64,000 bases of DNA from the NCBI RefSeq assembly GCF_963576615.1, contig NC_088717.1:13150108-13214107 (forward strand), read 5' to 3'. The position numbers were made by a program, and so were the translations under genes. The DNA comes from Watersipora subatra (lineage: Eukaryota > Bryozoa > Gymnolaemata > Cheilostomatida > Watersiporidae). The stretch's first letter is position 1. Each line of letters starts with the position of its first letter. Under the pieces are notes generated by a model, which was not told the DNA's origin, searched no databases, and worked only from the letters and a program-made list of their open reading frames with translations. This document shows, piece by piece, positions 25,401 to 58,693 of this stretch.

Positions 25401-28400
25401 CGACAAGCTGGAGGCACGCGTGGCCCCGCAGGGCCAGGCTAGATGGTGCGCTATCTGTCCGGCCATGCAGGAAAGCACGGTATGGCAATCATACGCCCTG
25501 GCCACTTTGGGGTCGGAAGGACAAGCCGCCTCCAGCTGACCTGGTACTGGACCGGACTGATGTCCACAGTCAGACGGGTCATCAAGAGTTGTGAGGTGTG
25601 CCAGGCCATGAAGCATGGAGGGACAAAGGCGGTCCGAGGGAAAAGAAGGCTCTACGTCAGACGATCCTGGCAGAAGGTGGTCGTTGACCTGGTGGGGCCA
25701 TTTCTGGTCACGCCTAGGAGGAGCAAGTGAGTGCTGGTCCTCACTGACCATTTCACCCAATGGCAGGATGCACTGGCACTACCTGACACCATGGCCCTGT
25801 GGTCGCAAATGCACTAGATGAGCGGGTCTACTGCTACCTAGGGTTACCTAAGCAGATCCACACGGACCAAGGGACGCAGTTCAAAAGCCAGCTGATGGCT
25901 GAACTGTGCCAACTCTGGAATGTGGAGAAGACACATACCACTCCCTATCACCCACAGGCCAATGGAATCGTAGAACGGAATATCCAGGGACTCGGAGATT
26001 CCTTGAGGGCATTACTTCTGGCCGAGAGACAGGAGGAATGGGATCTGTTGCTTCCCCAGCCAATGAAGTCATACCAAAGCACCCCCCACTCCGCAACCGG
26101 AGAAACAGCCAACATGCTGATGCTGGGGCAGGAGCTGAAGTTGCCGGACCAGCTGGAGAGTCACCCCCACCGACTGAGTTCTTTCTAGCCCACGAGCACG
26201 CCCAGAAGGTGCAGCAAAGGCTACAAACAGTACAAGAGGCACTACGACAGAGCCGGATAAAGGTGAGACAGGAGGACTGGGAGGAGCCACCGCTGTACAC
26301 CCCAGCTGACCGGGTATGGCTCGCGAACAAACGCCGGAGACAAGAAAAAAATCCCAAGCTGCAGGCGAAGTTCGTGAGACCATATCAGGTCCTGAAGGCC
26401 TGGGGCAACCATACATATATGGTGGAGCACCAGGGCCAGTTTTCCATCCAGAGCGAGGCAAGGCTGAAGCCCTACCATGCTTGCCCAGAGAGACTGGGAC
26501 AAGCCCCGGCCATTCTGGAGGCAAGGTTGGGCCCTCCTAACATGAAAAGGGCTCGACCCAGCAGGCCGGAGAGAAAGCCGGAGGAAGTCAGGAGCAACCC
26601 AGTGCCAATGATGCCGCCGCCCCAACTGGAAAAAATTGTTAATGGAGGCCGCAAAAAAATGAAGACAGGAGACAACTTCCAAGGAAAACCCAGCCGGACC
26701 GGAGGAAGGAGAGCGCCAAAGACCTAGTTCAGTGAAAATCAATCCGGTCCCACTAAGAGAAGAGGTTCCGGGAGAACCGGAATCAAACCCGGAGGAGGCC
26801 AGAGAAACCGCGACTCCAGTAATCCCACCAACTCCAGAAATCTCATCAGCTCCAGTCCGGCACAATTCGAGACCGGTCCGGACCACTAGGAAGCCAAAAC
26901 AGTATGGAGATGGGGTCTGCTACTGCATGGAATTGTCGGAAAACGGTTCAGAGGTCGAACAAGAAGGCAATAAAATGGTCCTCACGGTCGCGTCCAAAGC
27001 TTTCCTTTTAAAATACTTGTTTTCTCTGGACGACATTAGAGCACTCAAGAAGATGGACAGCGAAGGTAACACCTCGCTACAGGATTTATTGATTTCGGTC
27101 ACAACTAGCTTGAAAGTAGCTGAGGAAGCACCGGGTGCACCGGAGCCGGTAGGTGTGGCAGCACCCAAGAGAGATCAGGAGTGAAAGGAGGCGACTGCCG
27201 AAGCCAGCTCGAGCTGCCCCGGAGAAGCTGTCTCCAAAGCGGATGACAAGGACCTGGACCGAACCCTGACAGGAGAGTAGGAGGTCTGCCAAGTGGCTAC
27301 CATAAGCTCTCTCCCAAGGTCTAGATTTCAGACCGTGGTCACCAATGGAGGGGAGAGTGTTGTGGAATGTCATCCACACAGAGCTGAGCCTAGGGCTGAG
27401 CTAAGCCAAGCCGAGCTGTGATCAGTCAGGCAGAATAACGAGGTGCGAGTTAAGCCAGTCAGAGCCGAGCTGAGTAGAGCCAAGCCAATGCCGAGCTGGG
27501 TCAAGCCCAGCCAAGCAGAACGAGAGGCGGGGCCTACCCACTATATAAGCCTGAACATTTATGCTAGAGAGCAGAGCTGTTCTGGGCCTGTTCATTGCCT
27601 GTTACTGGAGCATTATTGTACAACTTATGAACTAAGCAAAAAATATATGTATAAACTCATGCGCCGAGTCTTGTACTAGTGGAGGAAGGTGAAGGTCGCA
27701 CAAAACCCTCACAATATTATTTAAAGACTGCTTACAGTTTGTCTTCTAAACTACTTTAGGTATTTGAATTACACAGCAAGACAAAAAGTATTCTTAAACC
27801 CTATAGTGACTGCTGACTCCAACTAACTATCCCATACATGTAGGATGTTCGGTTTTATTTGAAAACTCCTGTTAGCGTAATATTTTTACCCAAGTGAATT
27901 TCATTACAAGGTTTTGTTCTTTAAAGAATCATGTTCTTATAAACCTAGTTTAAAACTTTAACTTCTTAAAAATGTTATTATATGAAAAAAGCATGTATGC
28001 ATTAATGACAAATTTGTGCTGAACTTTGTACAGTAGACTCTCCTACAGCATGAATAATCCGTTCCATGAGTGTTTATGTTATAGAAATTTTACGTTATAC
28101 GAACAGTAACCTACATGTAAATTGCTTAATGCACTTCAAGATTTTTCCAAACTCACCCTTTTGGCCCTACAAAAAAGAAACATTAGATTTGGCATTTTTA
28201 TTTGTTGACTGCAGTATTATTGATTTGTGTTGACAACGTTTTTCTTTTTTTATCACTTTTCGTTTACACTAACTTTTAACCAACTTTATTAAAACTTGTC
28301 TCAAGCTAATTTGTCAAGAACAACCAAACGAAGCTGTTTAAAGGTTGACTTGCAACAAAATTCACATTACAGTTATTTGGTATCAAAAGAGTTACCATGT

Positions 28401-31400
28401 TTTACTCTGCTGTGTTGTAGGTGCGAAATATGTTGAAATGTGGTTGCACGCTCTTAAAGGGCATAAATTACATAATTTTTTATTTAATATTTCAATACAT
28501 TAGATTCTTGGCTTTTGAATGAGCTATTGTATGACATGGTGAGACGAAGATTGGTTGGTGTTCATAGGACATTTCCCCAGAGCTCTACCGCAGAAACGTT
28601 TAATGGTATTAATAATAAGCTCAAAAATTGTGACATCCTAATTTTCATATTCGGTCTTGTATGCTCTTACCGCTTATTTTATTGCTTAACGCTTATATTT
28701 ATCAACTACGATAATGACGCTAGTGGCAGGCAAAAGTAGGACAACTCCAGAGGACCAATGAAGATGACTAACAAATCAGTGTCATTAGCTCTCCATGTAC
28801 AGATTATTTATATGATAATTAACTCAGATTCCAAGGACCATACTATGTTTTCCGATGATATTATGCACTAGCCCTTTCTTTTTATTGTGATGTTGAGGGG
28901 CATGACTGAAACTAATTAATTTCAAGCATTGCGTGATCTCGTAAAAGTGCAATTTACATATAGTCTTAGAGATACGCAACTGCAGGTCAAAATTTAATCG
29001 ATGTGATTTCATTACCTTTGTCAACCACAGCATATTTATTGAAGCATAATTAATTATCCCAGAACATGTGTTTGTATTGGTAGGACGAACGTTAGCGCGA
29101 TCCCTGGGCATTGTTGATTATCTAGAATCCTAGTTTATTATTAGCGCTCTCCGGGTTCAATTGCACCGATTGTCACAAAATGCGCAGTTTCAATGGGAGC
29201 GAAAGAGATCGACTACCTAAGGCTAAATAATAGTTATGACATCACATTGTGGGAACCGCAACCAAGTGTTTTTTTATTGTAAGACATACTTCTGACATTT
29301 TGTTTTTCATAGTTCTATTATTCCTTGTGTATTGATTATAAGGTCATTTGAAAGCCAAGACTCTGATGTATTGAGCTACATGTATATAATAAAAAATTTA
29401 TATAATTTATGGGCTTTAAAAGTTCAAAATGAACAGTTAATCGCCGCCATCACGAAACTGCCATAGATTGGAATATCTTTCCAAAACGGCTCAAATGAGA
29501 CGTAATTGAATGAGATGGCTTCTGTTTACAATTTCATGCAACCTCATTTGTCAAAATATTTTCACAAATACACTTCACGCATTCAATGAAACCAGGTCTA
29601 TTGTCCTTATATGTCTACTTCATCATCATTGTAATGCTGTCACTTTCAGCACTGATATCTTATAACCTGCCGTGAAAATTCGTCTAATTTTTTAACCTTA
29701 GCTCGGAGGAGTACACATCATTATCAATCAAAAAATGCTGCAGAGCTTTTTTCGGGCTGTTTGGCAGAATGTATGGGTCACATTATTAGATAACAACTAG
29801 ACGATTAGACCAAGCCGAAACAAAACTGCAAAGTAGCGAGCATCTACATGTATATTTGATACGGGGTCTTTGGTAAAGCCCGAAGTGTTTGTCATAAACT
29901 AGTGCTATGAGAAGTTTTATATTGAGCCTTTTATTGGCCTTTCAATTCACGTGAAAACATCACGTGTTAAAACAATATCCAAATGGATTGACTACATCAG
30001 AGAAATAAACTGATTTCAATCTACGGCGATTTCGTGATGGCTGCGATTGACTGTTAGTTTTTGAGGTTTGAAGAGCTTGTAATCTCATTTCCACATATTT
30101 TGCACCTACAACAGAGCAGAGTAAGACATGGTGAATCTTTTGATACTAAATAACTGTAATGTGAATTTTGTTGCAAGTCAACCTTCAAATTTGAATTTTG
30201 AAAAAAAGTTTGACGTCATATGATGAGAGAAAATGCCGCAACTAATGGCCAGAAAAACTATGTATTCATTGTATTATATTATATTGCATTACATCAGGTA
30301 AGAAAACTTTAAGACAGGGACACTGTGACCCCGATGCCCCTGTCTTAAAGCCAACTCTGGTGTCTATTGTAATAGTATTTAACTGGATAAACCCTGTAAA
30401 CAATCCAGGCTCATGTAGAGTATCAAAAGGTTATCAGAGGCTCTGGTCAGGGCGATGAAGATGAGTTTGGTTAGAGTTTCACCACATAGTTTCTTTTTTA
30501 CACGAACATATTTGGTATATTCTTGATGTAATAGTTGGTAACATTGATTAGCTAGCGCATGGTTTACATACAAAATAACTATTAACTTACTATTGTCTTA
30601 TGTCACTTGGTAGAGTGATAGTAATTTGGTAAATACTACCGCATGAGTGACTATAGTTTCCTAGAGTTGTTATGGTAATGTAAACCACTGATCAGTCAAA
30701 ATTATTTTTGTAGCTTCAATTGAATATTTTAAAAACTAACTTGAAGAAGAAAACATTACATAGTTCATCATCTCCTAACTAGCGAGTAGTGTTTGCTAGT
30801 CTAAACAACTGGCATAATATCACGTATATATTTTTCTATCAACACTTTTATCTTTTGACTTACTGTTGTAGCTTTGTAATAGACTTTAATAGGTGTACTG
30901 TCAGTATTACGACACGGTCTGTTGCAGTATTGACAAGCTGAAGATGCTCAAACATCTCGACCTTTCCTCAAATAAAATTGACAAATTGCCTCCAGAGATA
31001 GGGGAGATGAAGGAGCTGGTCACATTGAATCTTTCAAAAAATTACCAGCTTACTTCCCTTACCTCTCAAGTTCTATCTTTAAAGAATCTACGATACTTTC
31101 GCTTATTTGGATGTACCTCATTACAAAGCCCTCCTTGGAATGTTGCACAGCAAGGTTTGTCTGCAATACATCAGTACTACAAAGATCTGGCAGGAGGAAA
31201 GGAGAAGCTGCTGTCAACAACCGTTGCAGTTATTGGTAAATCCAGATCAGGCAAAACCAGTCTTATCAAGACTATGCAGAAAGGGACACGAATTCTAACT
31301 GGAAGTTTGGGCTCGGCAGAGCAAATTTCTACAAAAGTATTCAACTTCGAAAAAGTATCATTTGGTGAAAGAACTCTGTATTTCATTGATTTTGGAGGCC

Positions 31401-34400
31401 AGGAAATCTACCACCATGCGTATAGACTGACCCTCAGAGAAAATTGCATCCCAATAGTGGTAGTTAACATGCATATGTATGTAGAAGAATCGGATAGAGT
31501 TGGGCCAAGAGAGTCTGTTCGAGCTCTTTTCTTTGACTGGATGGCCCATCTTTATCTAGCACATCCGAACATGCTACCTCCGGCTCTCCTGTTAACCCAC
31601 AAAGATTTATTTGATGAAGAAAAGTTTGAAGCAGAAAAAACGAAGCTTTTACAATATTGCAACGACGTATGTGGTGAGGTTCGAGATGAAGAGAATCGAC
31701 TTGGGGAAGCAATTTTTTGTCGCATTAAAAGCTTCGGAAAAGACACAGACCTGTTCACCCCAGACAGGATCTTTGAATTCGGGCGTGAATATTCAGACGA
31801 GTTTACAAGACTGAGGGATCAGCTGTTGCAACAAAGTCAAAAATATGTCATAGAAGTGCCTCGGCTGTGGAAACAAGTGGAAGGTGTGATAAGAACCCTA
31901 AAGTCACACTTTACCACTTTTGAATCGCTGCTTGACAAAGTTCATAAGTCACACGGTGTTGTAGAGAAGCAGATGGAAGTGATACTCAAATACATGCATC
32001 TGAGTGGTAAGCTTCTTTGGTACAATGAAATTGAGGGTCTAGATCAACATGTCTTTCACAAGATATCTGCTGTTACAGATTTGCTCAATGTCTTGTATGA
32101 CCATGATGGCGATTCCAAGTGGGACAAGCGGAGACAAAATTTCAAAAGCTGCAAAATTCAAACTGTGAATTTGTTAGAAGAAGAGTTTGAGGAGTCAGTG
32201 AAACAGTTCACGGCCACAGGAGTGATCCGTTTGGTGCTGCTGGCTTACCTGATAAAAACTGAAACAGCATTTATTGAAGATGATGAGCAAAGAGTTGCAT
32301 TAGCAATTCTTTCAAAGTTTCGTATTTTGTTTGGTTCTCTCTCAACTGATGATCCCAAATTCATAGTTCCTCATTTTGCTCAAGGGTTTCAATCAACCTT
32401 GCCAACAACGAAGTTAGACTTACAGTTTCAGACATATGTTTTGTGTAAAGGGCTGGCACTTCCACAGTATGTGTTTCATGAGCTGACAGTAAGGCTTTTG
32501 GAGCTATACTCTGACCCGTACAATACACCCATCGTGCATCACAATGGAGTATCAATTGCAGTTGATAAATCCCGAGTGCACTTTACCCACAATGCTAAAG
32601 CCGGAAAGATAACAGCCACTGTTGCTTTTAACGTGGAAGAATTTCATGAAGCATGGAACTATCTCAAAGAAACTGTCAACGTGGTCATCAAACATCTGCA
32701 AAAAACATGGAAAGCAACTCCGTTGGTATGCGTTTTCTACTGCGCCCACTGCAGACTAACTGGACAGCAGCACCCAGAAAAAGTCATCAATCCTTCTTGG
32801 AGTGTTCTTTCACGGGCACAGCCAGACCCTAAAAAGATAAAGATGAGAGATGTAGTATGTGCTGGGGAAAGTGTGTATTCAGTCTTCAAGTTTCCAAGTA
32901 AGTGTAAATATAGTTAATATATATGAATATATGCAACTCGACAACAAGATACACAACTGATTTCTGGCTTTGTTTAAAGGTCAGCCATTGTCAGAAGATG
33001 AAAAAAGGAAACTCAAGGAATATGTGTCAGCAAAACAAACAGCCACAGCACCGGGTAAGCATCTACACGTGGCTGATTCTCTAGCTATAAAAGTATGCAT
33101 TAGTTTATTAACACCAATATGACGCTCTATTTCTGTATGAAATTGTATTATTATGGTAATAAAGAATATTGAATAGTAACCTTTTATAGAGAATACTCGG
33201 TAGGTTTGTTTCTATTATTACAGCAAGATGACATCCTTTAGGACTTTAAATCTTATTTCTACAAGTAATAACTACCTCATTGTATAAAAGTTGCAATACT
33301 CTACCGTTACATTTGTTATAGTGTCTGGCATCATTCAACCATACACTGCTTCCTCCTGCCCTTCTGCTTTCAACGGAATCCCTGATCTGATAGGTTCATC
33401 GTTGGTTGATGTATGCAAGGCTATCTCTGATGGCAGCCCGTCCCACACAAATAAGACAGAGATCAAATACCTGTTCCACGATACTGATGCGGCAAGTATC
33501 TGAATTATGTTCGTGTTATAGACTTTATAATAAATAAATAGTATTAAACAGGTATTTCTATTTTCCATTCTATTTGACTATTAGAAATAAAATACTCAAT
33601 TTTGTAAGATATTATAGTTGTTTGTAATATTGTAATTGTTTGGAGTCAAATATTCTTAGTTGTTTTAAATACAATTTCAGTTTTTATGCTCATATTTTTA
33701 TACATCTACTGGAAGCACTATTTTATATGTAATACAAGTGATTTAGTACTACATTTTCTGTATTCACTACTGCAGTTGCTATTTGGTTTTAACTATAGCT
33801 AATATTCAACCATGCTGCGATATTCAGAGTTGCATAACTGCTTATTGTTTGTTAAATATACTGCTTGCAAGATAACATAACAAATAACTTACATTGGAAT
33901 TAATCTACATAAATTTTTCAACATTCTATAATCATGCATGTCTTCACTGTAAATCTTTGCTCAATAACTCGGTATGTTTCTTTCAGGTCTACAAGATGAC
34001 AAATCCTCGAGGAAGAGTGCTGATAATCAACAACAATGAATTCCATGATGTTCATGGAAAGACATCTTACAGACATGGATCAAAGCATGATGTTAAACAT
34101 CTGCAGGAAATGTTTGGTCATCTTTATTTTGAAGTTGAGACAAGAGAAAATCTAACTAGCAACGTATGATATTAAATTAGTGTCGTTAGTGGGTCATGTA
34201 ATGTCCTTAGTCATGGCCTTATTGTTTGTTAATAGGAAAGGTTGCTATTGAAAAAATGAAAAGGTGCAGTTGGTTTCGCCATATATTCGAAAATATTATT
34301 TCCAAATATGGCGGCGTGCCTATTTCATTTAGTAGCTAGTTTCCAGTGTGCGTGTAGCAACTGAGAACTTAGCTGATACAAAGGCTGTGATAAAATAAGC

Positions 34401-37400
34401 TAACTTGACGACCTAATTACCGTAAACTGGTAGAATTGGTAGTCATTACTCAAATGTTTACACAGCATTTAGAGGAAGTTAATATGGCAAGTTTTCAATT
34501 TCCCTTGTTCGAGGCGTTTGAAACATTCAAAATAATGTATCTGTAGCTGGATCTAAAATTTTATTCTAGCTATCACAAGCAAATACGAAATAAAATATAT
34601 GCCAATAGAGCCGCGTAGGACTAGACTTTTATCGCATTAGCCGATGTGAATACGAGAGATAGAGACGGGTTGTATCACGCGTTACATCATTTTGGGCAAG
34701 TCTGGGCATGTTTTTTTTTGCCTGAGCATTTTTACTGCGGTCAATTTTTTCGATTTTAATTTTCAAATATCTTGACAATGAGATCGCTTATCACAACAAA
34801 CAACAAATCAACTGACAGACAAACAAATGATTTCTTTTAAAATCAACTCAAATCTGACACAACCACATCTTTAAGCTTTGTGATAAGCTTTAAGCTCTTG
34901 ATAAGTTTGTCAAACAAATAATGCATTGTTAATTGAATTAAATCTGAGGTAAGGGATCTTAGTTAAACTTTTGAGCATTTTAAACATTGAGCTGTAAAAT
35001 TATTTTCCAAAATAACTGCATTAATAATTGCAAATCATTTGTGACTGGAAAAGTTATACATGATTTGCACATCCGCAGTTACACATAAAATTCCAGTTAC
35101 AATCCCAAATTACATTTAGCTTAGAAAATATATGCAATAAAAGTTACATTTATAAAAATAATTAATTAATTTGTCCTTGAATAAGTTAACAATAATAAGT
35201 TATGCATTATATTGCCAAATTGTTTTCATTCAGTAATTAAATCGGTTAACCATAGTTCTAGCGGAATTAAATTGTGCATGCATTAATTTTTTCAGTTACA
35301 TTTGTAAAATATTTTCAACATTTCTTGCACCACCTGAGGCGGTATAGATTTGCTTTATTTTATAATCATGGAAATACATGTATACATACTTTATACAGAC
35401 TGCGTATATATATATATGTGTGTATGTATACATATATATACAGTGAAACTCGGATAACTCGCCCTCGGATATCTCGAACACATGGTCAACTCGAACGGAT
35501 TTTTTGGTCCCCTCCCACGCAATGATAAATTGCTTTAGATAACTCTACCTCAACTTTGTTAACTCAAACAGTTTTTTGCCCAACGGCTACCGAGACGGTT
35601 GTTATCGCTTTAGAATATCGCTTTATTCCAAGCCATAGAAATAAACAACAACTTTTAGTAGTTCTTAGGCGTCCTTATTACCACTATCGGCAAAATATTT
35701 TCGTTAACAACTTTTCTAAAGGTTTGCAAAAAATCAAATTTTACCAAACATCCGCTTTGGGATAGCCCTCCGCAAGCATGGAGAACCCAGGTAACCTTCA
35801 GATAAACTTTAAGAAAAATCGGCAAAACTGTTTTTTGTTAAAACGCTCAAAAGAAAAATACGAATTTTTTTTCTGAGAGTTTCAACCGCGATCAGGTTTT
35901 GCCTATTTTAATCTGAAAACGTCCTGGCAGTCACATCACCTAAAACGAACAAATGAATCTCAAGTAATAAAAGGAAGATATTTATACTTTCGGATAAAAA
36001 TTGTTAAAACATTACATTAGAGGTCCCTTAACTTGCAACAAACAATCAATGCTTTTGATTTATATATAGTTTGTGTATGTACTGATAAATACAATAATAC
36101 ATGCACTTGTGACAGTTTTCTCATAACTTGAACGCTCTGATAACTCGAACGCTTTCTCTCGGTCCCGTGAAGGTCGAGTTAGCCGAGTTTCAGTGTATAT
36201 GTGTGTGTACATGTACTATCTGTGCTACCCGGCGTTGCTTGGGTAATAAAAAATTATTTGGACAGAAAATTGATTTGTATTTAACATGTTACAACATTTG
36301 CCATTCCAACTTTCAATTTACATATCATTAGAGAGGTGTTTTTTGTAGTTGAAATAAATTAACAAAGAAAGTAAAAACAAGTGTACAGGTTTTTAAACTT
36401 TGTCAAACAACTGTAACTTTCAAACTTCATATCATGAGGAAAAGGTTTTGTGCAGGACAACTAAATTAAAAATAAATAAAACAACTATAAAGGTTTTCGA
36501 ACAACTGTAAGGTTAAGGTTTCATAACTTGAAAGAAGCGTTTCGTTGAAATAAATTAGAAAGAAAAATAAAAATGTAAAGGTGTTTAAATGCACGTGTGA
36601 AATCATTAGCAAGCAGTGGCTAAATATAGTCTATTTTGCTACAGTTACAATAAAAACTATTTGGTATACAGTTATATGATTTCTGATCGTTTCAGTGTTG
36701 GCATGCAAAAATTAGCCTATGATATTTTATATGAAAATATCATAGGCTATAGACATACGTAGAGTAGTTTAGAAACCCATAATAATTATCAATGCAATCA
36801 CCTCCTGACAAAAATTCATCATTAAAATGGTACCAAAATACTATATAAACCTTAGTAACTATAGTACCTACCATGACATTAGTGCATTTGTGGTTATGAT
36901 CTGCAAGATAATATAACATTACAATGTACTACGTGGAGAGTTCTTACCTTCCAGAGAGACGTGCAACACAAACGCTGAATCTAAATTAAATTAATTAAGT
37001 TTACTAAACACATACTTGAAGGAAGTTATAGTATGTATTTTAGTAAACTTCAAACTTTTAACAGAAATTTTATCATTTATCAGTTTGGGAATCATTTCAA
37101 TTCTAACTGATACCAGATTTACCGGAAAACGAATACGGATAGCTCGCCATGGCGAGTTCAGCGACGTATATATTTTAATAACGTATATAATCACTACACG
37201 GATTGCCAAATTTTAAGTTTGACATACATTATTGTCGATATCATGGAACGAAACAACAAAGCAATCCCAACGAGAAAAAGACGAAGAAGCATCGTGTTGC
37301 ATATACTAAGGTCGCCAAATATTTCTTAACTGCAGCATCGTAATGCAAGGGCGCAAATGCTAAAATAATAATAAGCTGGAACTCCGGAGAAATCTCTGCA

Positions 37401-40400
37401 TTAAAGAGTGTAGATTATAATATGAGGGCTTAATTCATCACTTCAATAGTTTTCTTCAGTTTAAACCATGTTTTTATTCATATTTAGTTAATTGCGAATA
37501 TTTATGGCTCGATGGAAAACCAGAGAGACAGACATGTAGGAAAATTAGACATACCTTAGATGTTTTTGACAGGTTACATGTTGTCTGCTTATTCCGGTGC
37601 AGGAAATGTTGGAAGCAGTGGAGTCAGTCACCCAAGACAGGAGAATGGAAGACTATGGCATGTTTGCTCTTGTGATTATGAGTCATGGACAAGAAAATGA
37701 CCAGATAAGCGGAAGTGATTTTAATTTGATCAAACTTGATGATGTGTACTTCCTATTATCCCCGCAAAGATTCCGGCATATGGCTGGGAAACCCAAGATG
37801 GTGATCGTTCAAGCGTGTGCTGGATGTAAGACTTTTATATAAGCGTAATAAAACACAAAGTTTAATTAGATAATCTATTGAGGTCAAATAACATACTAGA
37901 TGCATTTCAGATGGAAGAGAATGACTTACCACTTAATATTTGTTTGCAGTCTTAAAAGACTTTGGAGAACAGCATGACAATCGATTGGGAATCGCATCAC
38001 AAGTAATTGATGCGCAACACCCTGGACCTTTTCAACGAGTACATGTTACAGAATCACGAACTGTACGATCCAGAGATCCCCCAACACCAGATCTATCCAT
38101 CAAACATCTCAGCATGGATGATTTGATTGTGATCAAGGCTAGTTTTAACAGTAAGTTACAGATTCAGTTAAAGATGTGGTTGCGTCAAATTTGAGTTGAT
38201 TGTAAAAGAAAGTATTTTTTGTCTATCAGTTGATATGTTGTTGGTTGTGTTAGGCGATCTCATTGTCAAGATATTTGAAGATTAAAATTGAAAAAATCGA
38301 TCGCGGTAAAAACGCTCAGGCCAAAATACCATGCACAGACTTGCCCAAAATGATGTTACGGGTGATACAACCTGTTTCTATCTCTCGTATTTACATCGGC
38401 TATTGCGATAAAAGTCTAGTCCTACTCGGCTCTATTGGCATACATTTTATCTTGTATTTGCTCATTTTGGCTAGAATAAAATTTTAAATCCAGCTACAGA
38501 TACATTATTATCAATGTCTCAAATGCCTCAAATAAGGGAAATTAAAAACTGGTCATATTAGGTTCCTCTAAATGCTGTGCAAACATCTTAGTACCGACTA
38601 CCAATTTTACCGATCTACGGTAATTATGTCAAATTAAGTCGAATAAGGTCTTTGTATCGGCACAGTTCCGTTGCTACCACACCGGAAACTAGTTACTAAA
38701 TAAAATAAGCAAGCTGCGCCTTTGACAAGAATATGTGGCGAAACCAATTGTATCCCTGAAAGTCGTGTACATTGTATAGTCATCGTTATCGAGTCATTAT
38801 TGGTATCAATTTGTAGAAAAAATTTTACTGGTCACATTTGATTAGTAGATTCAAGTACTAAACAAATGGTCGAGTTATGCAAAAGTACCTGTCAATACAG
38901 CTCTGATTACACTTCATAAATCCGTCTATCAGACAAGATTTCAGCACAAGTGTCAACAGGGCTATGATGTATTCAATGTTCTGCAAATCATGTTTTGCAT
39001 TATCTTCAACAATATTATTTTATTATATAATTTTTACAAGCAAAAGGTTTTCATCTCCGCATGAAGCTTTTATTAAAAATATCCATCCAATTTGTGGCCG
39101 CTCACATAGTTTCAGCTCATACAATAAGACAAATTCGTCTACTGCAGTAAACTCAAACAAAACACCGTGGTTTATGCAGCACACATTCAAGGCTCACTTT
39201 CCCATTTATGGCAGTTTCCACACTGACAAAGCTGCTTTGCTGGTGGGACCACATAAACATCCTATAATAAATAAAACAAATGCAATAAATACATGTCATT
39301 CATAGATATGTCATTCTAACGCGTATCTACTGAAAGCTTTCAAATTGGGAGTTAGATGGATGGCGAGTGTAGTTTTAAAAATGAGTAAATGTTTAACCAA
39401 AGCATAATTACGCCAAGCCAATGATTCGAAGCTTTGGTTCTGGAAGTTAAAGATGTGCATTGATCAATCAATTTTCCTAAATTTCTACAAGTGAGCAGTG
39501 AACATCTAAATTCTAATCATAAATTTACTTTACTAGCTAAAACTGCGAAAGAAAATTTGAAGCAAATATAGCTAGGTGAAACGATAAAAGATTATAAAAC
39601 GATGATTGGTGATAGCAAAAAGTTATAAATCTATTAATTGGTAAATGTATTCATGAGTACTAAATTTATTACTTTTAGTATACTTATCAATCTAAGCCAT
39701 TGTATTGATAGATGCTATGGAATAAAAAGGAGCCGTCAATAACTCACTGTGCATCCGTATCTTGCACACGCACAGGAAGTTACATCATAGCCTCAAACAG
39801 GGAAATATAACCTGAATGTAAACACAACAGTATATCTATAATAGGAGACTCAAAGTAAAAAATAAATTTACCTCCATTCTCCTATCTTCCTCTGTAGCAT
39901 AACGCTGCTGACACCTGTCAGTTCAAACAATAAGCTGTCTGTCCCAAACTTTAACCACCTGATGCTCAGAAAACTCAAAGTCACCTTCGCAGGAGCTGGA
40001 AGTATTTTACAATTCTGTTGTTCATCAATAAAACGTGTCGATCGAGTAATTCATTGAAGTAACGATGTTAATTAATTTAGTAAATATCTATGTCGATGCG
40101 ATCTAATAATGGAGTAAAATCCCTAACTTTGAGATCACAGACAACGCGTTTTACGAGTGATAACATTCATTACAACCTACATAAAAAGTTTTGTGCTGAT
40201 GATTGGCTAATGAAGCAATTTCATATTTATCGCTCGGGGACTCTTTCTTTTCAGATGTATCACTCGTTATGTCACGATTGAAGCACCCGCTGAAATCTGA
40301 GCTTTTTAAAAGATGGCCTCATTCAAACGCATATATCTCTGGACAGGGTTAGTCTACAAAGACTAAAATGACATCAAGTTGTAGCTGATGTTTTAGCCTT

Positions 40401-42276
40401 TTATTGGCCTTAATTTCATTAAATCGACCTTTTTAACGCAACCACAACTTTAAAGGAAGTGAATGAATAACTAAATAGATGAGTGAATTTGACTCTCCTG
40501 AAATGCACTATTCATGCCATTCTGAGTTAATAGAGAGTCAACTTATATAAAGTACACAAGAGATAATATGTATCTTGTACAACTGAGTATTACCGTTTTA
40601 CTGATAATCTTGTTTATTTTTATGAGAGAATGCATCTGTCATCAAATGCTTTCAGTGTACGCATCTATGAGAGATGCACAAGGTGATCAAGGCTCATTCC
40701 TTATTGCTAATCTGATTTATGGATTCTACAAGCATTCTCATGATACTGATGTTGAGTCTATCTTCAAATTAGTGAGTCTATTTATCTTACATTTATATTC
40801 ATCGTACCTGTATGACATTTAGTAAGATCATACATTTTTTTATTCATTTTAGCTTTTTTAGCATACTTAAGCATTGTGCAGTTAATGCTTAAGTTATTAA
40901 ACAAAATATTAATTAAACTAGAGCTAATAAACTTAATTAATGTTAATTGAAGGTAATTAAACTATAATATTAAACTAATTATTTTTAAAGTTTTTATGCA
41001 GGGCTTAAAAATGTACTATTGATTGATATATTTTGTTGCTAGATAAACTAAAGACTAGTAAAACATGGACTAACTTGTGTTGTTTTGAGAGAGTTTAGAA
41101 TGGCTACTGATAAAAATGATTCAATGTAACTACAAGAGTCATGAAATTACTAAAATTCGTTCTGCTGGAAAATCTCTCTCAACCATTAAAAGCCTACAGT
41201 AAAGGACCAGCCTTAAACACTCTCTTCTATAGCTGTGAGTACAAGATTTCACCCAAATCAGGACTATATATCAACAAATAGTATTTATATATGTATGATT
41301 GTTTTACAATGGAGAGGTAAAGAGCCATTTTTGTTGTATTCATTCAAGCATTAACTCATCCTGGTCACCCTCAAGTAATTAAGCCCTGAGCTGACGTTTA
41401 TCATTATTCCATGGACCACTTGGGGTGAGATGCATTGATAGGTTCAATTCGGCATACCATTTTCTATATAGGTTGTTGGTAATAGGAACATTTTCCAGAT
41501 ATTGTATCAAGTATCCCTTTTGATAATATTTAATACGTAATAAGACCAAAGTACACTAGAGAAATATTGTGTAAATACACAAGGGTTAGTCTGTAGCTGA
41601 AGCGGCGTGAATGATCACAAACTCACCTATAATAGTATTTATGCTTAAAGTTGACTGTTGCCAATGTTTTGGGATTGGCTCACTGATTGTCAGCCAGTAA
41701 GTTTTAAAATTAAATCCGAAGCACTGTGTGGGGGACTTACTTTAAAATTAACTTACAGTTACTCTATAAGGATATAACACAGCCAAAAATAACAATCACT
41801 TGAAAGATAATATTTCTAAAGTTTTCACACTAAAATTTTAAAGTCATATTAAAAGCTATGTTCATTGTAATAGAAATTTGAGTATATAAATGTCAAGGTC
41901 TAAATATTGTGCATAAATTATCCATCATCAGTGCACGTAACTGTGCAGTCATTGCAGAGCAAATGGTAGTTCTAACATTCAGCATGAACTCTTACTTGAC
42001 CTCCAGTATGCTTAAACTATATTTTACAATTCTCAAGCAATTGTATTTAATGTATCTATCTTTGCTTCCTCTCCTAATATAACAAGTTTTTTGGTAATAA
42101 AATTATTGTTTTAGCCAAACATTATTTTGTAGGTTCAAGAAAATATTAGGAACCAAACAAAGGATTTAGCTAGCAAGTCCCCGAAAAGCTGTTATGGTCA
42201 GATGCCTTTTGTCTTCAGCACACTGACAAGGCTAAGAAAACTTTACCTGTTTCCTGGATACCATGGAGAGGCATGA
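123..42276 (+). CDS. ROCO-caspase gene: LRR-ROC-COR-caspase fusion, 12 visible exons, 5' end outside window
   Basis: Twelve exons chain with matching intron phases into one open frame of about 1,212 residues that ends at a TGA. Order: four 47-residue LRR exons, a large exon with further LRRs, a ROC GTPase (P-loop, DFGGQ switch II, THKD) and COR, then a linker, then caspase p20 and p10 halves. In known ROCO proteins the ROC-COR tandem is a GTP-controlled dimerisation switch, and LRRs sense ligands or partners. Caspases are cysteine proteases cutting after Asp. Inference: a cytosolic receptor whose GTP-driven oligomerisation activates an attached initiator-type caspase. No signal peptide or death-fold domain is visible, but the N-terminus is missing. 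The exon chain is read from splice consensus and domain continuity, not transcripts. The alternative is two genes, one LRR-ROC-COR and one caspase; the linker exons 32980-33054 and 33322-33491 keep frame across the junction, and no start or stop signal separates the halves. Confidence 0.8.
264..2282 (+). other. Intron: first half is the duplicated LRR-unit intron, the rest unassigned
   Basis: Positions 264 to about 1450 are copied after the exons at 11815 and 19624, including the short CTGGCAGCAACGACTGGCAG palindrome near 820-855. From 1450 to 2282 the sequence is AT-rich and I see no gene or recognisable element. Confidence 0.6.
2283..4180 (+). mobile_element. Heavily decayed Ty3/gypsy remnant (sense strand)
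   Basis: Positions about 3725-4170 align by eye, with frameshifts and stops, to the reverse transcriptase of the two younger gypsy copies in this window. Correspondence runs from the [12 protein letters not shown] stretch, through [15 protein letters not shown] and [10 protein letters not shown], to APATFQ. Upstream 2283-3060 is GC-richer than the surrounding intron and probably derives from gag, but it is too damaged to prove. No LTRs were found. It lies in the intron between LRR exons A and B and is much older than the copies at 5.4-10.7 and 20.5-27.7 kb. Confidence 0.65.
3065..3660 (+). repeat. 35-bp minisatellite, about 17 units
   Basis: The unit resembles CTTGTCCATGGCAGTGTG followed by TCTGTCTACTCCAACTG. 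It is repeated head to tail with many substitutions and few length changes. Because 35 is not a multiple of 3, the open frames across it are by-products. It sits inside the decayed gypsy, just before the reverse-transcriptase-like part. Confidence 0.85.
4181..4801 (+). other. Intron sequence, no recognisable feature
   Basis: AT-rich, no extended open frame, no inverted or tandem repeat seen. It ends at the TATGTAG acceptor of the next LRR exon. Confidence 0.5.
4802..4942 (+). CDS. LRR exon B of the ROCO-caspase gene (diverged copy)
   Basis: Again exactly 141 bp with phase 2 at both borders and a GTAAGT donor. It encodes two LRRs ([18 protein letters not shown]) ending LPP before the splice. 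Its protein keeps the repeat pattern but differs at many positions from exons A, C and D. Its introns are unrelated to theirs, so it is an older member of the same exon family. Confidence 0.85.
4943..5400 (+). other. Intron sequence before the minus-strand gypsy
   Basis: No gene seen. Open frames on the minus strand here are accidental or run out of the gypsy 3' end. The gypsy LTR fragment begins abruptly at 5401. Confidence 0.5.
5401..5432 (-). repeat. Truncated 3' LTR and adjacent polypurine tract
   Basis: On the minus strand it starts TGTTGTGGAATGTGATC, like the LTR starts at 20470 and 27358, and is preceded by the purine tract GGAGGGGAGAG (5433-5443). LTR homology stops after 32 bp, where unrelated intron sequence begins. 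Confidence 0.8.
5700..7330 (-). pseudogene. gypsy integrase and C-terminal tail (broken)
   Basis: The minus strand shows the zinc-binding region (near 7310-7130; [23 protein letters not shown]), core remnants with [12 protein letters not shown] near 6830-6790, and the [17 protein letters not shown] motif of the integrase C-terminal domain near 6400. These fragments lie in at least three frames. The last section to 5700 is a hydrophilic tail of unknown role. Integrase inserts the element cDNA; this copy cannot encode a full enzyme. Confidence 0.8.
7743..8220 (-). pseudogene. gypsy RNase H fragment
   Basis: The minus strand encodes [14 protein letters not shown], then in another frame [23 protein letters not shown] sequence and [10 protein letters not shown]. 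These match the RNase H domain that follows reverse transcriptase in gypsy pol. A frameshift near 8100 separates the two parts. Confidence 0.8.
8560..9060 (-). pseudogene. gypsy reverse transcriptase fragment
   Basis: The minus strand shows [43 protein letters not shown] and [16 protein letters not shown], which are characteristic RT motifs, in shifting frames. The enzyme copies element RNA into DNA; this copy is inactive. Confidence 0.85.
9510..9900 (-). pseudogene. gypsy aspartic protease (retropepsin) fragment
   Basis: The minus strand keeps the catalytic FLLDTG motif near 9875-9850, but the following codon is a stop (TGA). Downstream are [12 protein letters not shown] and the [14 protein letters not shown] section seen also in the plus-strand copy. 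Retropepsin would process the polyprotein; the nonsense codon beside the active site disables it. Confidence 0.75.
9901..10735 (-). pseudogene. gypsy gag remnant
   Basis: The minus strand of about 10700-10440 matches the gag start of the plus-strand element, for example ATGCCAAGGGCTCA and the passage preceding GGCGTCGGCTACCTC. No continuous frame remains, and the 18-copy QERRP repeat of the other element is absent here. Confidence 0.6.
10736..11234. other. Unassigned AT-rich stretch between gypsy body and LTR
   Basis: This 0.5 kb does not match the leader of the plus-strand gypsy by eye and has no coding potential that I can support. It may be intron sequence or an unrelated insertion separating the LTR at 11235 from its element. 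Confidence 0.4.
11235..11595 (-). repeat. gypsy LTR (solo, or displaced 5' LTR of the minus-strand element)
   Basis: On the minus strand it runs from TGTTGTAAAATGTGATCC to CACAAAACCTTTACA, about 361 bp. It matches the 355/356-bp LTRs at 20470 and 27358, including the GGCCTGTTCATTGCCTGTTACTT section. The flanks (left ATAT, right TCCC) do not form a target duplication, so it may be a rearranged 5' LTR rather than a clean solo LTR. Confidence 0.8.
11692..12870 (+). repeat. LRR exon duplication unit, copy 2
   Basis: It closely matches 1-1200, both upstream of the LRR exon and along the downstream intron. Homology fades near 12870, shortly before a CAGTAGATGCTTC sequence that resembles a Tigger-type end. 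Confidence 0.75.
11815..11955 (+). CDS. LRR exon C of the ROCO-caspase gene
   Basis: 141 bp, phase 2 at both ends, TTTTGCAG acceptor and GTAAGT donor. It encodes two LRRs ([18 protein letters not shown]) and the same LTGLPA ending as exon A. The open frame is intact, so there is no sign that this duplicate is a dead exon. Confidence 0.85.
13020..13256. repeat. Tandem duplication, about 119-bp unit, two copies
   Basis: Both copies run from a GTAAAG...AAGTCTGACG or GAGTCCGGCG start to a shared TATCTATTATATATACA end, with many substitutions between. Confidence 0.65.
15576..15764 (-). pseudogene. Tigger/pogo-type transposase N-terminal helix-turn-helix fragment
   Basis: The 62-residue minus-strand frame contains [20 protein letters not shown], then a [10 protein letters not shown] stretch. 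This is the CENP-B N-terminal/Psq helix-turn-helix signature that starts pogo-family (Tc1/mariner superfamily) transposases and binds the element ends. The frame stops directly after it, and no DDE catalytic domain was found nearby. It is a remnant within an intron of the host gene. Confidence 0.75.
16868..17165. repeat. 27-bp minisatellite, about 11 units
   Basis: The unit is CTGTGTAACACATCACTGCTATCTAGC with scattered changes. Because 27 is divisible by three, all frames tend to stay open. The minus strand reads as a 9-residue LHRLDSSDV repeat, which I regard as fortuitous. Confidence 0.9.
17448..18239 (-). pseudogene. Helitron-type protein, N-terminal fragment (DUF6570-like)
   Basis: A 263-residue open frame. 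Its middle has two CxxC pairs (LTCTGC and LCHTC), then [23 protein letters not shown], and [18 protein letters not shown] followed by VNDFVKNLP. This is the pattern found near the start of animal Helitron Rep/helicase proteins (DUF6570-type domain). Helitrons are rolling-circle transposons; the Rep nuclease and PIF1 helicase that should follow are not encoded downstream, so this is a truncated copy. The residues after NLP do not look like the family and the frame ends in low-complexity sequence. It lies antisense in the intron between LRR exons C and D. Its open state over 790 bp suggests a fairly recent insertion or chance survival. Confidence 0.75.
18240..19590. other. Intron sequence without recognisable features
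   Basis: AT-rich. No coding frame or repeat is supported by eye. Confidence 0.5.
19624..19764 (+). CDS. LRR exon D of the ROCO-caspase gene
   Basis: 141 bp, phase 2/phase 2, GTAAGT donor. It encodes two LRRs ([18 protein letters not shown]) with an LTGLPA end. The exon and downstream intron match copies A and C, but the upstream intron is unrelated. Its acceptor ATTATTTGCAG sits in a hairpin-prone AATATTATTTGC...GCAAATAATATT stretch (19585-19612 region), which marks the duplication breakpoint. Confidence 0.85.
20470..20824 (+). repeat. 5' LTR of plus-strand gypsy
   Basis: Starts TGTTGTGGAATG and ends CACAAAACCTTTACA. It contains TATATAG at about 20653 as a likely TATA box and many GAGCCAAGCC-like short repeats. 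It pairs with 27358-27713. Confidence 0.9.
20826..20842 (+). promoter_or_regulatory. Primer binding site (putative)
   Basis: TGGTGACAGCGGTGGGA begins two bases after the LTR. The TGG start complements a tRNA CCA end, as expected for reverse-transcription priming. The tRNA identity was not determined. Confidence 0.7.
20955..21400 (+). repeat. Three tandem ~150-bp repeats in the gypsy leader
   Basis: Copies begin near 20955, 21111 and 21261, each with CCTGCCTGA(A/G)AAA, TGCTCCTACT(G/A)AA, TTCCTGGCAACAG and AGCAGAAACCTACT. They precede gag and are absent from the minus-strand copy. Role unknown; leaders of retroelements often hold translation or packaging signals. Confidence 0.75.
21411..23000 (+). 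pseudogene. gypsy gag, frameshifted
   Basis: Capsid-like sequence [30 protein letters not shown] and [11 protein letters not shown] (21540-21715) continues in another frame with [19 protein letters not shown] and [20 protein letters not shown] (21765-21925). It then hits a stop near 22005. A third frame (22094-23077) carries a basic, hydrophilic region with the QERRP repeat. Gag forms the intracellular particle; at least one frameshift near 21765 and one stop break it. Confidence 0.8.
22589..22858 (+). repeat. 18-copy 15-bp repeat in gag (QERRP peptide)
   Basis: CAGGAGCGGCGACCT is repeated 18 times almost perfectly; units 3 and 4 have CTG for CAG. It encodes (Q/L)ERRP, an alternating acidic and basic, proline-spaced peptide. 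Its near-identity contrasts with the diverged LTRs, pointing to recent expansion by slippage or unequal exchange. Confidence 0.95.
23010..23645 (+). pseudogene. gypsy protease region, catalytic motif lost
   Basis: PIQFLL is followed by AAW where the minus-strand sister copy has the aspartic DTG triad, so the catalytic Asp is missing. [12 protein letters not shown] and, after a stop and shift near 23180, [30 protein letters not shown] and a [13 protein letters not shown] tail follow. It cannot process a polyprotein. Confidence 0.75.
23650..24600 (+). pseudogene. gypsy reverse transcriptase, broken
   Basis: Recognisable segments are [66 protein letters not shown], the catalytic YLDDI (about 24247-24261) and [17 protein letters not shown]. 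Several stops (for example near 23925 and 23989) and frame changes separate them. Confidence 0.88.
24600..24850 (+). pseudogene. gypsy RNase H fragment
   Basis: [29 protein letters not shown] and [21 protein letters not shown] are contiguous and intact here. The domain then loses its frame after about 24800. Confidence 0.85.
25430..26190 (+). pseudogene. gypsy integrase, frameshifted
   Basis: Zinc-binding part with [16 protein letters not shown] and [12 protein letters not shown], then core motifs [16 protein letters not shown] and [12 protein letters not shown], which place the D, D and E of the catalytic triad. A frame change near 25730-25800 splits the core. Confidence 0.88.
26191..27346 (+). 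pseudogene. gypsy integrase C-terminal domain and tail
   Basis: [31 protein letters not shown] and [13 protein letters not shown] form a GPY/F-like C-terminal domain. A proline- and charge-rich tail continues in two frames to 27184. I see no envelope glycoprotein signature, that is, no signal peptide or transmembrane segment. Confidence 0.7.
27347..27357 (+). promoter_or_regulatory. Polypurine tract
   Basis: GGAGGGGAGAG directly abuts the 3' LTR and is identical to the tract of the minus-strand copy. It primes plus-strand DNA synthesis in retroelements. Confidence 0.85.
27358..27713 (+). repeat. 3' LTR of plus-strand gypsy
   Basis: Starts TGTTGTGGAATG, ends ACAAAACCCTCACA, followed by the ATAT target duplication. 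Substitutions against the 5' LTR are scattered along its length. Confidence 0.9.
27714..28032 (+). repeat. LRR exon duplication unit, copy 3 (part after gypsy insertion)
   Basis: Continues the homology to 1120-1452 that is interrupted at 20469. Shared stretches include TTTACCCAAGTGA and GCTGAACTTTGTACA. Confidence 0.7.
28031..28341. mobile_element. Tigger-like terminal fragment
   Basis: Begins CAGTAGACTCTCCTACAGC just where the duplicated intron ends, and contains a segment related to 14640-14760 and 16190-16310. It is cut off by the TTAA element at 28342. Confidence 0.5.
28342..30184. mobile_element. Long-TIR element flanked by TTAA, carrying a nested insertion
   Basis: The left end AGGTTGACTTGCAACAAAAT and right end GTTGCAAGTCAACCT are inverted over about 120 bp. 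The flanks are TTAA (28338-28341) and a mutated TCAA. A second copy lies at 50452-51333. Noncoding; TTAA targets suggest mobilisation by a piggyBac-type transposase. Its left arm is split by the element at 28458. Confidence 0.75.
28458..29415. mobile_element. Nested inverted-repeat element (TTAA target)
   Basis: Ends AGGGCATAAATTACATAA and its imperfect inverse TTATGGGCT extend inwards about 55 bp (to the TCTTGGCTTT motif on each side). TTAA sits on both sides, and the split arm of the host element can be rejoined by eye at GCTCTTAAAAG. No transposase ORF is evident. Confidence 0.7.
30185..30927 (+). other. Intron end with a strong hairpin
   Basis: Contains the 13-bp stem CTTTAAGACAGGG (30307-30319) with CCCTGTCTTAAAG (30338-30350). 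Otherwise AT-rich, with no gene, up to the CTGTTGCAG acceptor. Confidence 0.6.
30928..32897 (+). CDS. LRR-ROC-COR exon of the ROCO-caspase gene
   Basis: A 1,970-bp exon from a TCTGTTGCAG acceptor (phase 2, matching the LRR exons) to a GTAAGT donor (phase 1). It begins with LRRs ([27 protein letters not shown]). The ROC GTPase domain follows: P-loop [10 protein letters not shown] at 31235-31264, switch II DFGGQ at 31388-31402, base-recognition THKD at 31595-31606. The rest is a COR domain with VPRLWKQVE and [10 protein letters not shown], then [16 protein letters not shown], as in MFHAS1- and DAPK1-type ROCO proteins. The glycine-glutamine in switch II resembles Ras, where Gln supports GTP hydrolysis; LRRK2 differs there. 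The key residues look intact, so GTP binding is expected. An in-frame ATG at 30893 lies before the acceptor and is probably intronic. Confidence 0.92.
32980..33054 (+). CDS. Linker exon of the ROCO-caspase gene
   Basis: A 75-bp exon after TTTAAAG, ending before GTAAGC, phase 1 at both ends. It encodes a charged, Lys- and Glu-rich linker ([15 protein letters not shown]). Support is splice consensus and frame continuity only. Confidence 0.65.
33322..33491 (+). CDS. Linker exon upstream of caspase domain (GC-AG intron follows)
   Basis: Begins after GTTATAG (phase 1) and runs open to DTDA. For the next exon to stay in the caspase frame it must end in phase 0 at 33491, which makes the donor GCAAGT, the usual form of the rare GC-AG intron class. 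A GT donor at 33496 would shift the caspase frame. The peptide ([19 protein letters not shown]) matches no domain I know and may be the prodomain-to-p20 connector. Its DTDA end offers an Asp that could be a processing site. Confidence 0.65.
33987..34163 (+). CDS. Caspase p20 exon 1
   Basis: A 59-codon, phase-0 exon. [19 protein letters not shown] matches the p20 start of initiator (caspase-8-like) caspases. [18 protein letters not shown] supplies the S1-pocket Arg (codon 34071-34073) of the R-x-G-(S/T) motif. It ends NLTSN before a GTATGA donor. Confidence 0.88.
34264..34788 (+). repeat. Inverted repeat arm, left
   Basis: About 0.52 kb that is the diverged reverse complement of 38252-38757. 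Shared stretches include TTGGTAGTC, GACTAGACTTTTATCGCA and TATCTTGACAATGAGATCGC (reversed on the right). Confidence 0.85.
35441..36195. mobile_element. MITE with CAGTGAAACTCGG ends and TA target
   Basis: The left end CAGTGAAACTCGGATAAC and the right end's inverse CACTGAAACTCGGCTAAC differ at few positions, and TA lies on each side. There is no transposase. The end sequence and target are typical of pogo/Tc1-mariner-mobilised MITEs. Confidence 0.75.
36713..36749. other. Near-perfect short palindrome
   Basis: TAGCCTATGATATTTT pairs with AAAATATCATAGGCTA across a 5-nt loop. Possibly a transposon end junction; function unknown. Confidence 0.8.
37603..37825 (+). CDS. Caspase p20 catalytic exon
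   Basis: From a GTGCAG acceptor to a GTAAGA donor. It encodes [12 protein letters not shown] with the catalytic His (CAT 37684-37686) and VIVQACAG with the catalytic Cys (TGT 37816-37818), the QACxG hallmark of active caspases. The G-loop and spacing between dyad residues look normal. Both residues are present, so the protease is predicted to be competent, unlike pseudo-caspases. Confidence 0.93.
37950..38150 (+). CDS. Caspase p20-p10 linker exon
   Basis: Acceptor TTTGCAG, donor GTAAGT, phases 1 and 1. It starts [11 protein letters not shown] right after QACAG, as in other caspases, has several Asp residues that could be the maturation cleavage site, and ends [11 protein letters not shown], the strand entering p10. 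Confidence 0.85.
38252..38757 (+). repeat. Inverted repeat arm, right
   Basis: Reverse complement of 34264-34788 with moderate divergence. It lies in the next intron but one, so the two arms enclose the exons at 37603 and 37950. Confidence 0.85.
38758..40655 (+). other. Intron sequence, no supported feature
   Basis: An open stretch at 38964-39305 has no domain that I recognise and no coding-like repeats, so I do not call it. The rest is AT-rich. Confidence 0.5.
40656..40771 (+). CDS. Caspase p10 exon 1
   Basis: Acceptor GCTTTCAG, donor [25 protein letters not shown] carries the S-x-R motif whose Arg (40670-40672) binds substrate Asp, followed by the GS-F-I strand. [19 protein letters not shown] matches the p10 helix region. 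Confidence 0.9.
40772..42132 (+). other. Last intron, no supported feature
   Basis: AT-rich with short repeats of TTAATTAA-like sequence at 40890-40990. No gene seen. Confidence 0.5.
42133..42276 (+). CDS. Caspase p10 terminal exon with stop
   Basis: Acceptor TTTTGTAG, phase 0, 47 codons then TGA at 42274-42276. [20 protein letters not shown] followed by FPG is the standard p10 C-terminal strand (Q-x-P ... L-x-K-x-x-x-F-P). The protein ends eight residues later, so there is no domain after the caspase. Confidence 0.9.
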   Translation, partial: VQENIRNQTKDLASKSPKSCYGQMPFVFSTLTRLRKLYLFPGYHGEA

Positions 42277-53029: not shown

Positions 53030-53668
53030 TCAATTCTTCCCATTGATATGTAGGAGTTCACTGAAGTAACGATTTGTAGCATGTTGATCATTGGCTTCTC
53101 CTCTCAAATATGGATAAAGTCTTGTTTCGGTTAATATTATGTTTGAAGGTGTGTTCCAATCAAGTGAGGATAATAATGATAGTTGGACTTTGTCACTCCT
53201 TGGTCCGATTTGAGCAGATTCCAAACACGTTCCAATATCGAGTTCGGCAAAAGTCTCATGAAGTTCTTGTCGAGTCAATCCTTCATTTCCATATCGTATT
53301 TGCATTATTCTAATACAATATTGACATTCTCGAGCTCCCTCGAAGCATCCACACCGACTTTCTAAATATGTTACGAAACGTTTATAGATATAGAATCCGA
53401 TAACATAGTAAAAAGTTTCTTCAGTAACTCTTCTGATGAATTTTTTTGTGTTTTTCTTTACAACCACTCTTGATAATTGTCCATCCTTAAGATGAGCTGG
53501 AATAAACTCCTCTAGAAATATAACCGACATTGTTTCTGTTTTCTTCGTTTTTTTTTTTGTTCCTTCACCAACAGAGCTAAATTGAAGAATGGTGGAGAAA
53601 TCTAGAGGAGTAGACTTATTATCATTCCGAATCTTTTTTTTTTTATTTTCATCCAACAGATTTTTCAT
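53030..53668 (-). CDS. Element protein p212, paralogue of p195
   Basis: 212 residues; a second ATG (MSVIFLEEF) at residue 47 may be the real start, since the first 46 residues are Lys-rich low complexity and overlap the end of p195 by 20 nt. The core reads VTEETFYYVIGFYIYKRFV, a Cys cluster CGCFEGARECQYC, then LTRQELHETFAELDI and SAQIG. The order and spacing match p195, so the two arose by tandem duplication. The YYVIGFYIYKRF-C-x-C pattern faintly recalls the YIAGY..RK..C..C segment at the C-terminus of P-element/THAP9-type transposases. That is a weak likeness and no catalytic domain is present. Function unknown. Confidence 0.7.
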   Translation of the reverse strand: MKNLLDENKKKKIRNDNKSTPLDFSTILQFSSVGEGTKKKTKKTETMSVIFLEEFIPAHLKDGQLSRVVVKKNTKKFIRRVTEETFYYVIGFYIYKRFVTYLESRCGCFEGARECQYCIRIMQIRYGNEGLTRQELHETFAELDIGTCLESAQIGPRSDKVQLSLLSSLDWNTPSNIILTETRLYPYLRGEANDQHATNRYFSELLHINGKN

Positions 53669-54236: not shown

Positions 54237-54435
54237 GTTACTATGAGAAAGTCTACATTCGAAATGATTTTACATTGGATAGTATATTGAATTTATATGA
54301 GCTTAGTTATATATTATTGATATTGTATATACGAAAAGAAGAGCCAATGAAGAAAATAAAATTTTATAGTAATAATACATCGAGGAGTAAAACTCTACTA
54401 TCATATATACTTAACGACAAATTCACTTCTAAAAA

Positions 54436-55006: not shown

Positions 55007-55136
55007 CTAAAATAAAAAATTTCAATCCTTAATTCTTGTTATCTTAGTATTATAATACTCCCATTTCAAAAAATTATCATTCAAATGTTTACCATTATAC
55101 ATATTTTTTCTAAAAGATACAAATGAGATTACTTAC

Positions 55137-55228: not shown

Positions 55229-55339
55229 CTGAATAAATATATATACAGTCCTATTAGATTCCTTTACATATATTAGCTCAAGTAAATTTTTCATTATGAT
55301 TCAATTATATCAATAAGATAATAAATATATACTACTAAC

Positions 55340-58687: not shown

Positions 58688-58693
58688 AGCATT

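Follow-up and report, generated by a model that had tools for sequence, protein, structure and literature searches.

Caspase activation in animals is usually described in terms of a separate sensor, adaptor and protease, with a STAND-class ATPase serving as the switch, and initiator caspases are activated by proximity. The gene described here combines a caspase with a ROCO-type protein, and its closest known systems are found on both sides. MFHAS1, DAPK1, LRRK1 and LRRK2 are the vertebrate Roco proteins named in a review of the family, MFHAS1 having only LRR plus RocCOR; the RocCOR unit dimerises largely through COR, with a dimer state that follows the nucleotide, and the word caspase is absent from the available text of that review (PMC6337361). 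In brown algae, as in Watersipora, the LRR-ROC-COR family is expanded and its LRR exons are symmetric and in phase 2, with shuffling of exons and alternatively spliced products; the algal LRR exons are 72 bp long with one LRR each, as opposed to 141 nt and two LRRs in Watersipora, and the available text again lacks the word caspase (PMC11378527). The nearest case described among the matches listed comes from another lophotrochozoan, Aplysia, in which TIR-LRR proteins join ROC-COR to an immune effector domain, although this domain is TIR rather than a caspase, and there are two genes (PMC9334734).

Here we report on a gene of the cheilostome bryozoan Watersipora subatra, for which a genome of 783.70 Mb, mostly in 11 chromosomes and with 16,835 protein-coding genes, has been published, with poly(A) RNA-seq under BioProject PRJEB62167 (PMC12902671). 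A stretch of 64,000 nucleotides (NC_088717.1, referred to as C10, positions 13,150,108 to 13,214,107, forward strand) was analysed and is referred to as the window. The Watersipora proteins share the LRR-ROC-COR order with MFHAS1, the name given to them in RefSeq, but they add a caspase and number more than 100. Over LRR-ROC, the family profile also matches PDB chains 6hlu and 8r4b, which are those of the prokaryotic LRR-Roc-COR protein of Chlorobium tepidum (CtRoco). CtRoco has no protease, whereas the Watersipora family has a caspase.

We found no description of a caspase fusion for ROCO proteins. Among the matches listed in the literature on ROCO proteins, caspases and bryozoan genomes, with subscription journals outside the scope and the texts available in part, none described an LRR-ROC-COR-caspase fusion, and the words caspase, ROCO, MFHAS1, leucine-rich and immune are all absent from a paper on the Flustra genome. 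The sequences themselves are already public in RefSeq, mostly under MFHAS1 names. A protein database search with the caspase region alone, which required shared 5-residue words, gave 2 matches, both from Watersipora; the whole chain gave 28, with a caspase domain listed only for Watersipora, a 5-residue-word search that does not imply absence elsewhere. NCBIfam matches carried mostly the names of bacterial LRR effectors and were set aside as LRR cross-matches.

Exon structure of the window gene

Eight exons on the + strand splice to an uninterrupted frame of 1,024 residues followed by a stop (Table 1), in which the end of the LRRs, ROC, COR, a linker and the caspase follow one another. An earlier reading made from the DNA letters (the sequence-only reading) had placed an LRR-ROC-COR-caspase fusion at 30928-42276, which corresponds exactly to the first and last base of these exons. 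Its claim of matching splice phases holds only when both linker exons and the GC-AG intron after 33491 are included, and fails without them. We discarded a direct splice from 32897 to 33987, where a phase 1 donor would meet a phase 0 acceptor. All other introns of the eight-exon frame are GT-AG.

Table 1. Features of the LRR-ROC-COR-caspase gene in the window (positions are those of the window).
Feature	Position	Strand	Basis
LRR exon, 141 nt, two LRRs, phase 2-2	123-263	+	tblastn with RefSeq paralogs; splice sites by eye
LRR exon, 141 nt, phase 2-2	4802-4942	+	tblastn with RefSeq paralogs; splice sites by eye
LRR exon, 141 nt, phase 2-2	11815-11955	+	tblastn with RefSeq paralogs; splice sites by eye
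LRR exon, 141 nt, phase 2-2	19624-19764	+	tblastn with RefSeq paralogs; splice sites by eye
Large exon with the final LRRs, a ROC GTPase (Pfam Roc at ~31223-31471), COR and a conserved Cys motif	30928-32897	+	
Linker exon A, 75 nt, phase 1-1; missing in RefSeq paralog models P0003 and P0004	32980-33054	+	
Linker exon B, ISDG motif; ends in phase 0 at GC donor	33322-33491	+	
GC donor GCAAGT; GT four bases on; in-frame TGA on read-through	33492-33503	+	
Caspase exon 1: first strand (VYKM), first S1 Arg	33987-34163	+	
Caspase exon 2: both catalytic residues, His (MSHG) and Cys (QACAG)	37603-37825	+	
Caspase exon 3: inter-subunit linker, start of small subunit	37950-38150	+	
Caspase exon 4: second S1 Arg (ASMRD)	40656-40771	+	
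Caspase exon 5: C-terminal strand (LYLFPG), stop	42133-42276	+	

As the LRR exons are all in phase 2-2, any one of them could be skipped or added with the frame unchanged. Two further LRR exons lie 5' of the window (C10:13131485 and C10:13148013), as does an exon at C10:13119129 that resembles the N-terminal part of P0002; the latter has an acceptor site and is thus not the first exon. The start of the gene probably lies at least 31 kb before the window and, if all upstream exons belong to it, the gene is at least 73 kb long. These upstream LRR exons, a gene far larger than the span first proposed, and the size of the family described below go beyond the sequence-only reading.

The LRR introns contain retroelement-like frames (with the look of integrase and RNase H, by eye) at 5249-8237 (-) and 21416-27184 (+), on opposite strands and in GC-richer stretches with opposite AT skew. 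At 53030-59467 (-), a 1,127-aa open frame (55310-58693) resembles, by eye, a protein-primed family-B DNA polymerase. Together with its neighbouring frames, it probably belongs to a Polinton/Maverick-like element.

A GC donor between linker and caspase

In 16 of 16 C10 copies, GCAAGT is found at the junction of linker and caspase, with a GT four bases on and an in-frame stop soon after. We ruled out the GT at 33496 as the donor of the fusion, since its use would shift the frame into a stop. Read-through past the GC donor leads to ends like those of RefSeq models P0002 and P0003, which terminate at the equivalent of the donor region in Table 1. GC-AG introns are reported to be weaker and more often alternatively spliced, ING4 being a GC/GT case (PMC7242645). 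A regulated choice between a caspase-armed and an unarmed protein is conceivable at this site.

The same observations could be taken to mean that the C10 gene is indeed fused, while its usual product is a short, protease-free ROCO protein that arises by read-through or by splicing from the GT, the caspase form being a minor, regulated isoform. The paired donors and following stop in every C10 copy, the ends of P0002 and P0003 and the reported behaviour of GC-AG introns are all consistent with this. We nevertheless consider it rather unlikely: in P0004, a C10 subfamily model, the GC donor is used to splice linker exon B to caspase exon 1 (after which the model stops), special conservation just past the donor, stop included, is not supported (0.78 versus 0.82 in the rest of the intron), and the junction is GT-AG, phase 0 to phase 0, in all four compact relatives (L039-L042).

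GTPase module and variation of the LRRs

The P-loop and THKD of a ROC domain, noted in the sequence-only reading, are present in the large exon and recur in the paralogs. Pfam places LRR_8 (32.7 bits) and LRR_4 (32.9 bits) in this exon, both above the cut-off of 27, while Roc reaches 26.9 bits, just under its cut-off of 27, and the candidate COR domain directly after ROC 25.7 bits with COR-A (E 1e-5), below the cut-off of 35.3; COR-B was matched in P0122 with an E-value of 3e-4, below the curated cut-off. Using motif patterns drawn up for this analysis, as were those for the active site and the LRRs, and which may miss some forms, G1 was found in 31, G3 in 31 and G4 in 32 of 34 aligned chains, an alignment in which P0121 and P0122 are without ROC and P0131 begins past G1. 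By these motifs, the family has the ROC GTPase expected of ROCO proteins.

Just past COR (32741-32860), the 34-chain alignment contains invariant cysteines, a C-x2-C pair and a later C; in P0131 numbering, the columns concerned are C505, C508, W524 and C545. Lying as they do between the GTPase and the linker, these cysteines possibly form a small module that binds zinc. ROC-COR frames of ~580-730 aa with 29-43% identity were also found on short ENA/JGI/LGN contigs (P0007-P0015, P0132, P0133, P0135, P0136, P0139 and P0141-P0143), and are likely to be relatives in other animals.

Median dN/dS across 15 C10 copies (the damaged L024 left out) was 0.26 for ROC, 0.31 for COR, 0.35 for the Cys region and 0.30 for linker exon B, in contrast to 0.88 for the LRR part of the large exon. 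Caspase exon 1 gave 0.52 with 12 of the 15 copies, as L011, L020 and L022 do not extend to this exon or showed no match to it, and this is a weaker sign of constraint. The ratios indicate that ROC, COR and linker are constrained and that the LRRs change faster. The variation of the LRR cassettes falls mainly on their concave positions, with 1.36 bits versus 0.46 bits elsewhere on C10 (n=9, permutation p 0.001) and 1.45 versus 0.21 bits on C9 (n=8, permutation p 0.00005), where concave positions were set from the LRR pattern after the column entropies had been seen, and where the numbers exclude the window cassette at 4802 and a duplicate C9 cassette. A 98% identical exon in an ENA record, P0001, differs at 6 of 65 LRR positions compared with 10 of 592 others (p 0.003).

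Bryozoans are colonial, and a large, fast-changing LRR repertoire fits self/non-self recognition. The proteins might accordingly serve recognition at the level of the colony, or the programmed turnover of zooids, as opposed to anti-microbial defence. Pathogen sensing fits the same pattern, however, and we regard the colony-level assignment as unlikely.

The caspase domain

The five last exons, when spliced, match PF00656 with 128.9 bits (cut-off 21.4). CED-3 is the best PDB match (E 6e-18, aligned residues 4-281 of 286), and the catalytic His, the catalytic Cys and both S1 arginines, already recognised in the sequence-only reading, are in register with it; the four residues also line up in all 7 of the family caspases that we compared. 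By domain and active-site residues the window protein is a caspase (Peptidase_C14A) with predicted Asp-specific protease activity. Proximity activation would be expected, as for CED-3 and the initiator caspases, with which the caspase fold is shared. Unlike in the apoptosome or inflammasome, sensor and switch lie in the same chain as the protease, with a Roc GTPase in the role of the switch. In a scan of 7 chains at E 0.01, the listed domains included neither CARD, DED or Death nor NACHT or NB-ARC. The domain content thus points to a ROCO-type protein with a caspase effector, neither a canonical initiator caspase nor an NLR, and the label of executioner given in the sequence-only reading finds no support here.

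It could be argued that most caspase ends are inactive relics and that the receptors signal by other means. The active-site Cys motif is QACAG in the window as compared with QACSG in the family, and in L040 the position of the second S1 Arg appears, by eye, to be Lys. Given the Pfam score, the active-site residues complete in all seven chains compared, and a Cys exon 87-96% identical across 14 other C10 places, we consider this improbable.

In 15 of 16 linkers, [IL]SD precedes a G, S, T or V, while P0003 has IADD. This is a candidate self-cleavage site, although it could also be a phosphorylation site.

Some copies depart from the common arrangement. By eye, the caspase subunits of L040 are separated by a long repeat rich in Ser and Thr (QSTTVNS type), and L022 (C10:21.38 Mb) carries the linker exons twice in one gene, one copy being partial. 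Across 13 C10 copies, identity is mostly 0.8-0.97 over caspase exon 1 and its preceding intron (33700-34163), compared with 0.55-0.7 midway through that intron; dS is 0.10 at caspase exon 1 versus 0.23 in ROC. The caspase end of the C10 copies is possibly under gene conversion.

Fused chains, family size and order in the genome

P0123 (1,238 aa, C9), P0129 (1,219 aa, C4) and P0130 (1,386 aa, C4) are RefSeq gene models of the full LRR-ROC-COR-linker-caspase chain, and P0131 is a fusion chain truncated in ROC. The contig listed for P0122, P0138 and P0140 is 75,932,528 long, slightly different from C3 of the assembly analysed (75,923,518). The proposal of one polypeptide is supported by models that span all domains, intact active-site residues and a receptor-like family, and gene structure and annotation confirm the fusion. 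Two findings had been named in advance as speaking against it. Transcripts ending between 32897 and 33987 have a partial counterpart in annotation, where 12 of 18 RefSeq Watersipora ROC-COR chains stop before the caspase, while 6 of 18 reach caspase sequence and 4 of 18 have the whole active site, a tally of gene models in which P0126 was classed from its database entry only. The other was a separate promoter and start for the caspase exons in several species: P0121 and P0122, named caspase-2-like and caspase-8-like, begin inside COR and run via the linker through the whole caspase, so these models are not caspase-only genes. That a ROCO gene and an adjoining caspase gene were co-duplicated but never spliced into one mRNA, as the early ends of P0002, P0003, P0005 and other RefSeq ROC-COR models and the existence of caspase-named entries might suggest, is very improbable in view of the whole fused chains, the start of P0121 and P0122 within COR, the phase-matched joining intron of 100 bp in L039, and a caspase exon 1 that starts inside the caspase fold (YKM aligns to caspase-3).

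Queried with the window's ROC-COR exon and with that of a C9 relative, the genome gave at least 122 distinct places (66 of 67 rows and 64 rows merged by overlap, damaged copies included, the one at C10:21.34 Mb without its second fragment). For the caspase Cys exon, the best 150 of 176 candidates were scored; both totals are lower bounds, as such searches score only the best candidates. A caspase Cys exon lies downstream on the same strand within 20 kb, with no ROC exon between, for 106 of the 122 listed ROC exons, whereas the counts for downstream opposite, upstream same and upstream opposite are 0/122 each. At 40 kb the corresponding figures are 107/122, 3, 1 and 0. The order of ROC then caspase on one strand exceeds chance. 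It was also seen for 90 of 102 in a smaller list, the only count in which a family search with 125 rows was used. For 16 of the 122 ROC exons, the list contains no caspase Cys exon within 20 kb, and 41 of the 150 listed caspase exons are without a listed ROC exon within 40 kb upstream. In the C10 subfamily, each of the 16 ROC exons found is followed by caspase exon 1, which lies 1.0-4.5 kb downstream and on the same strand; for three of these ROC exons, no Cys exon is listed within 40 kb.

Proposed mechanism and role

Gene structure, family size, conserved order and intact GTPase and protease motifs are established at the level of sequence and annotation. We propose, with a probability of roughly two in three, that a single gene encodes an intracellular receptor composed of LRR array, ROC-COR switch, linker and caspase, in which a ligand would trigger proximity activation and thereby cell death or inflammatory proteolysis. 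The LRR array of this receptor would be variable and built of symmetric exons, its switch a GTPase module made of ROC and COR, its linker acidic and its caspase complete. A ligand on the concave face of the LRRs would change the nucleotide state of ROC, and the COR module would switch between monomer and dimer such that the caspase domains are brought together. Activated by proximity, the caspases may then cut their own linker at the candidate [IL]SD site and be freed, leading to cell death or inflammatory proteolysis with no need of a CARD or DED adaptor. The most likely role is that of a diversified intracellular receptor that would trigger cell death through its own caspase.

The sequence-only reading had treated GTP-dependent dimerisation as established. 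However, CtRoco, the best-studied Roco protein, monomerises with GTP, and the crystallised dimer is nucleotide-free (PMC11052575), which contradicts the direction assumed there.

More speculatively, bryozoans may hold a repertoire of more than 100 single-chain sensor-switch-protease receptors, with swappable LRR exons providing many variants per gene and the C10 GC/GT donor acting as a safety catch at the RNA level; we put this forward as a doubtful extension. If true, the C10 gene could yield a receptor armed with the caspase or, alternatively, a ROCO partner lacking the protease, which possibly restrains the armed form.

These genes attach a caspase directly to a different switch, the Roco GTPase familiar from LRRK2, and they form a family that is large and changes fast. 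This may offer a simple system for how the Roco nucleotide state controls an attached enzyme, a question shared with LRRK2. For the bryozoans, a little-studied phylum, the family is a candidate for a large immune or self-recognition repertoire, in which the fusion is hidden behind an MFHAS1-like RefSeq name.
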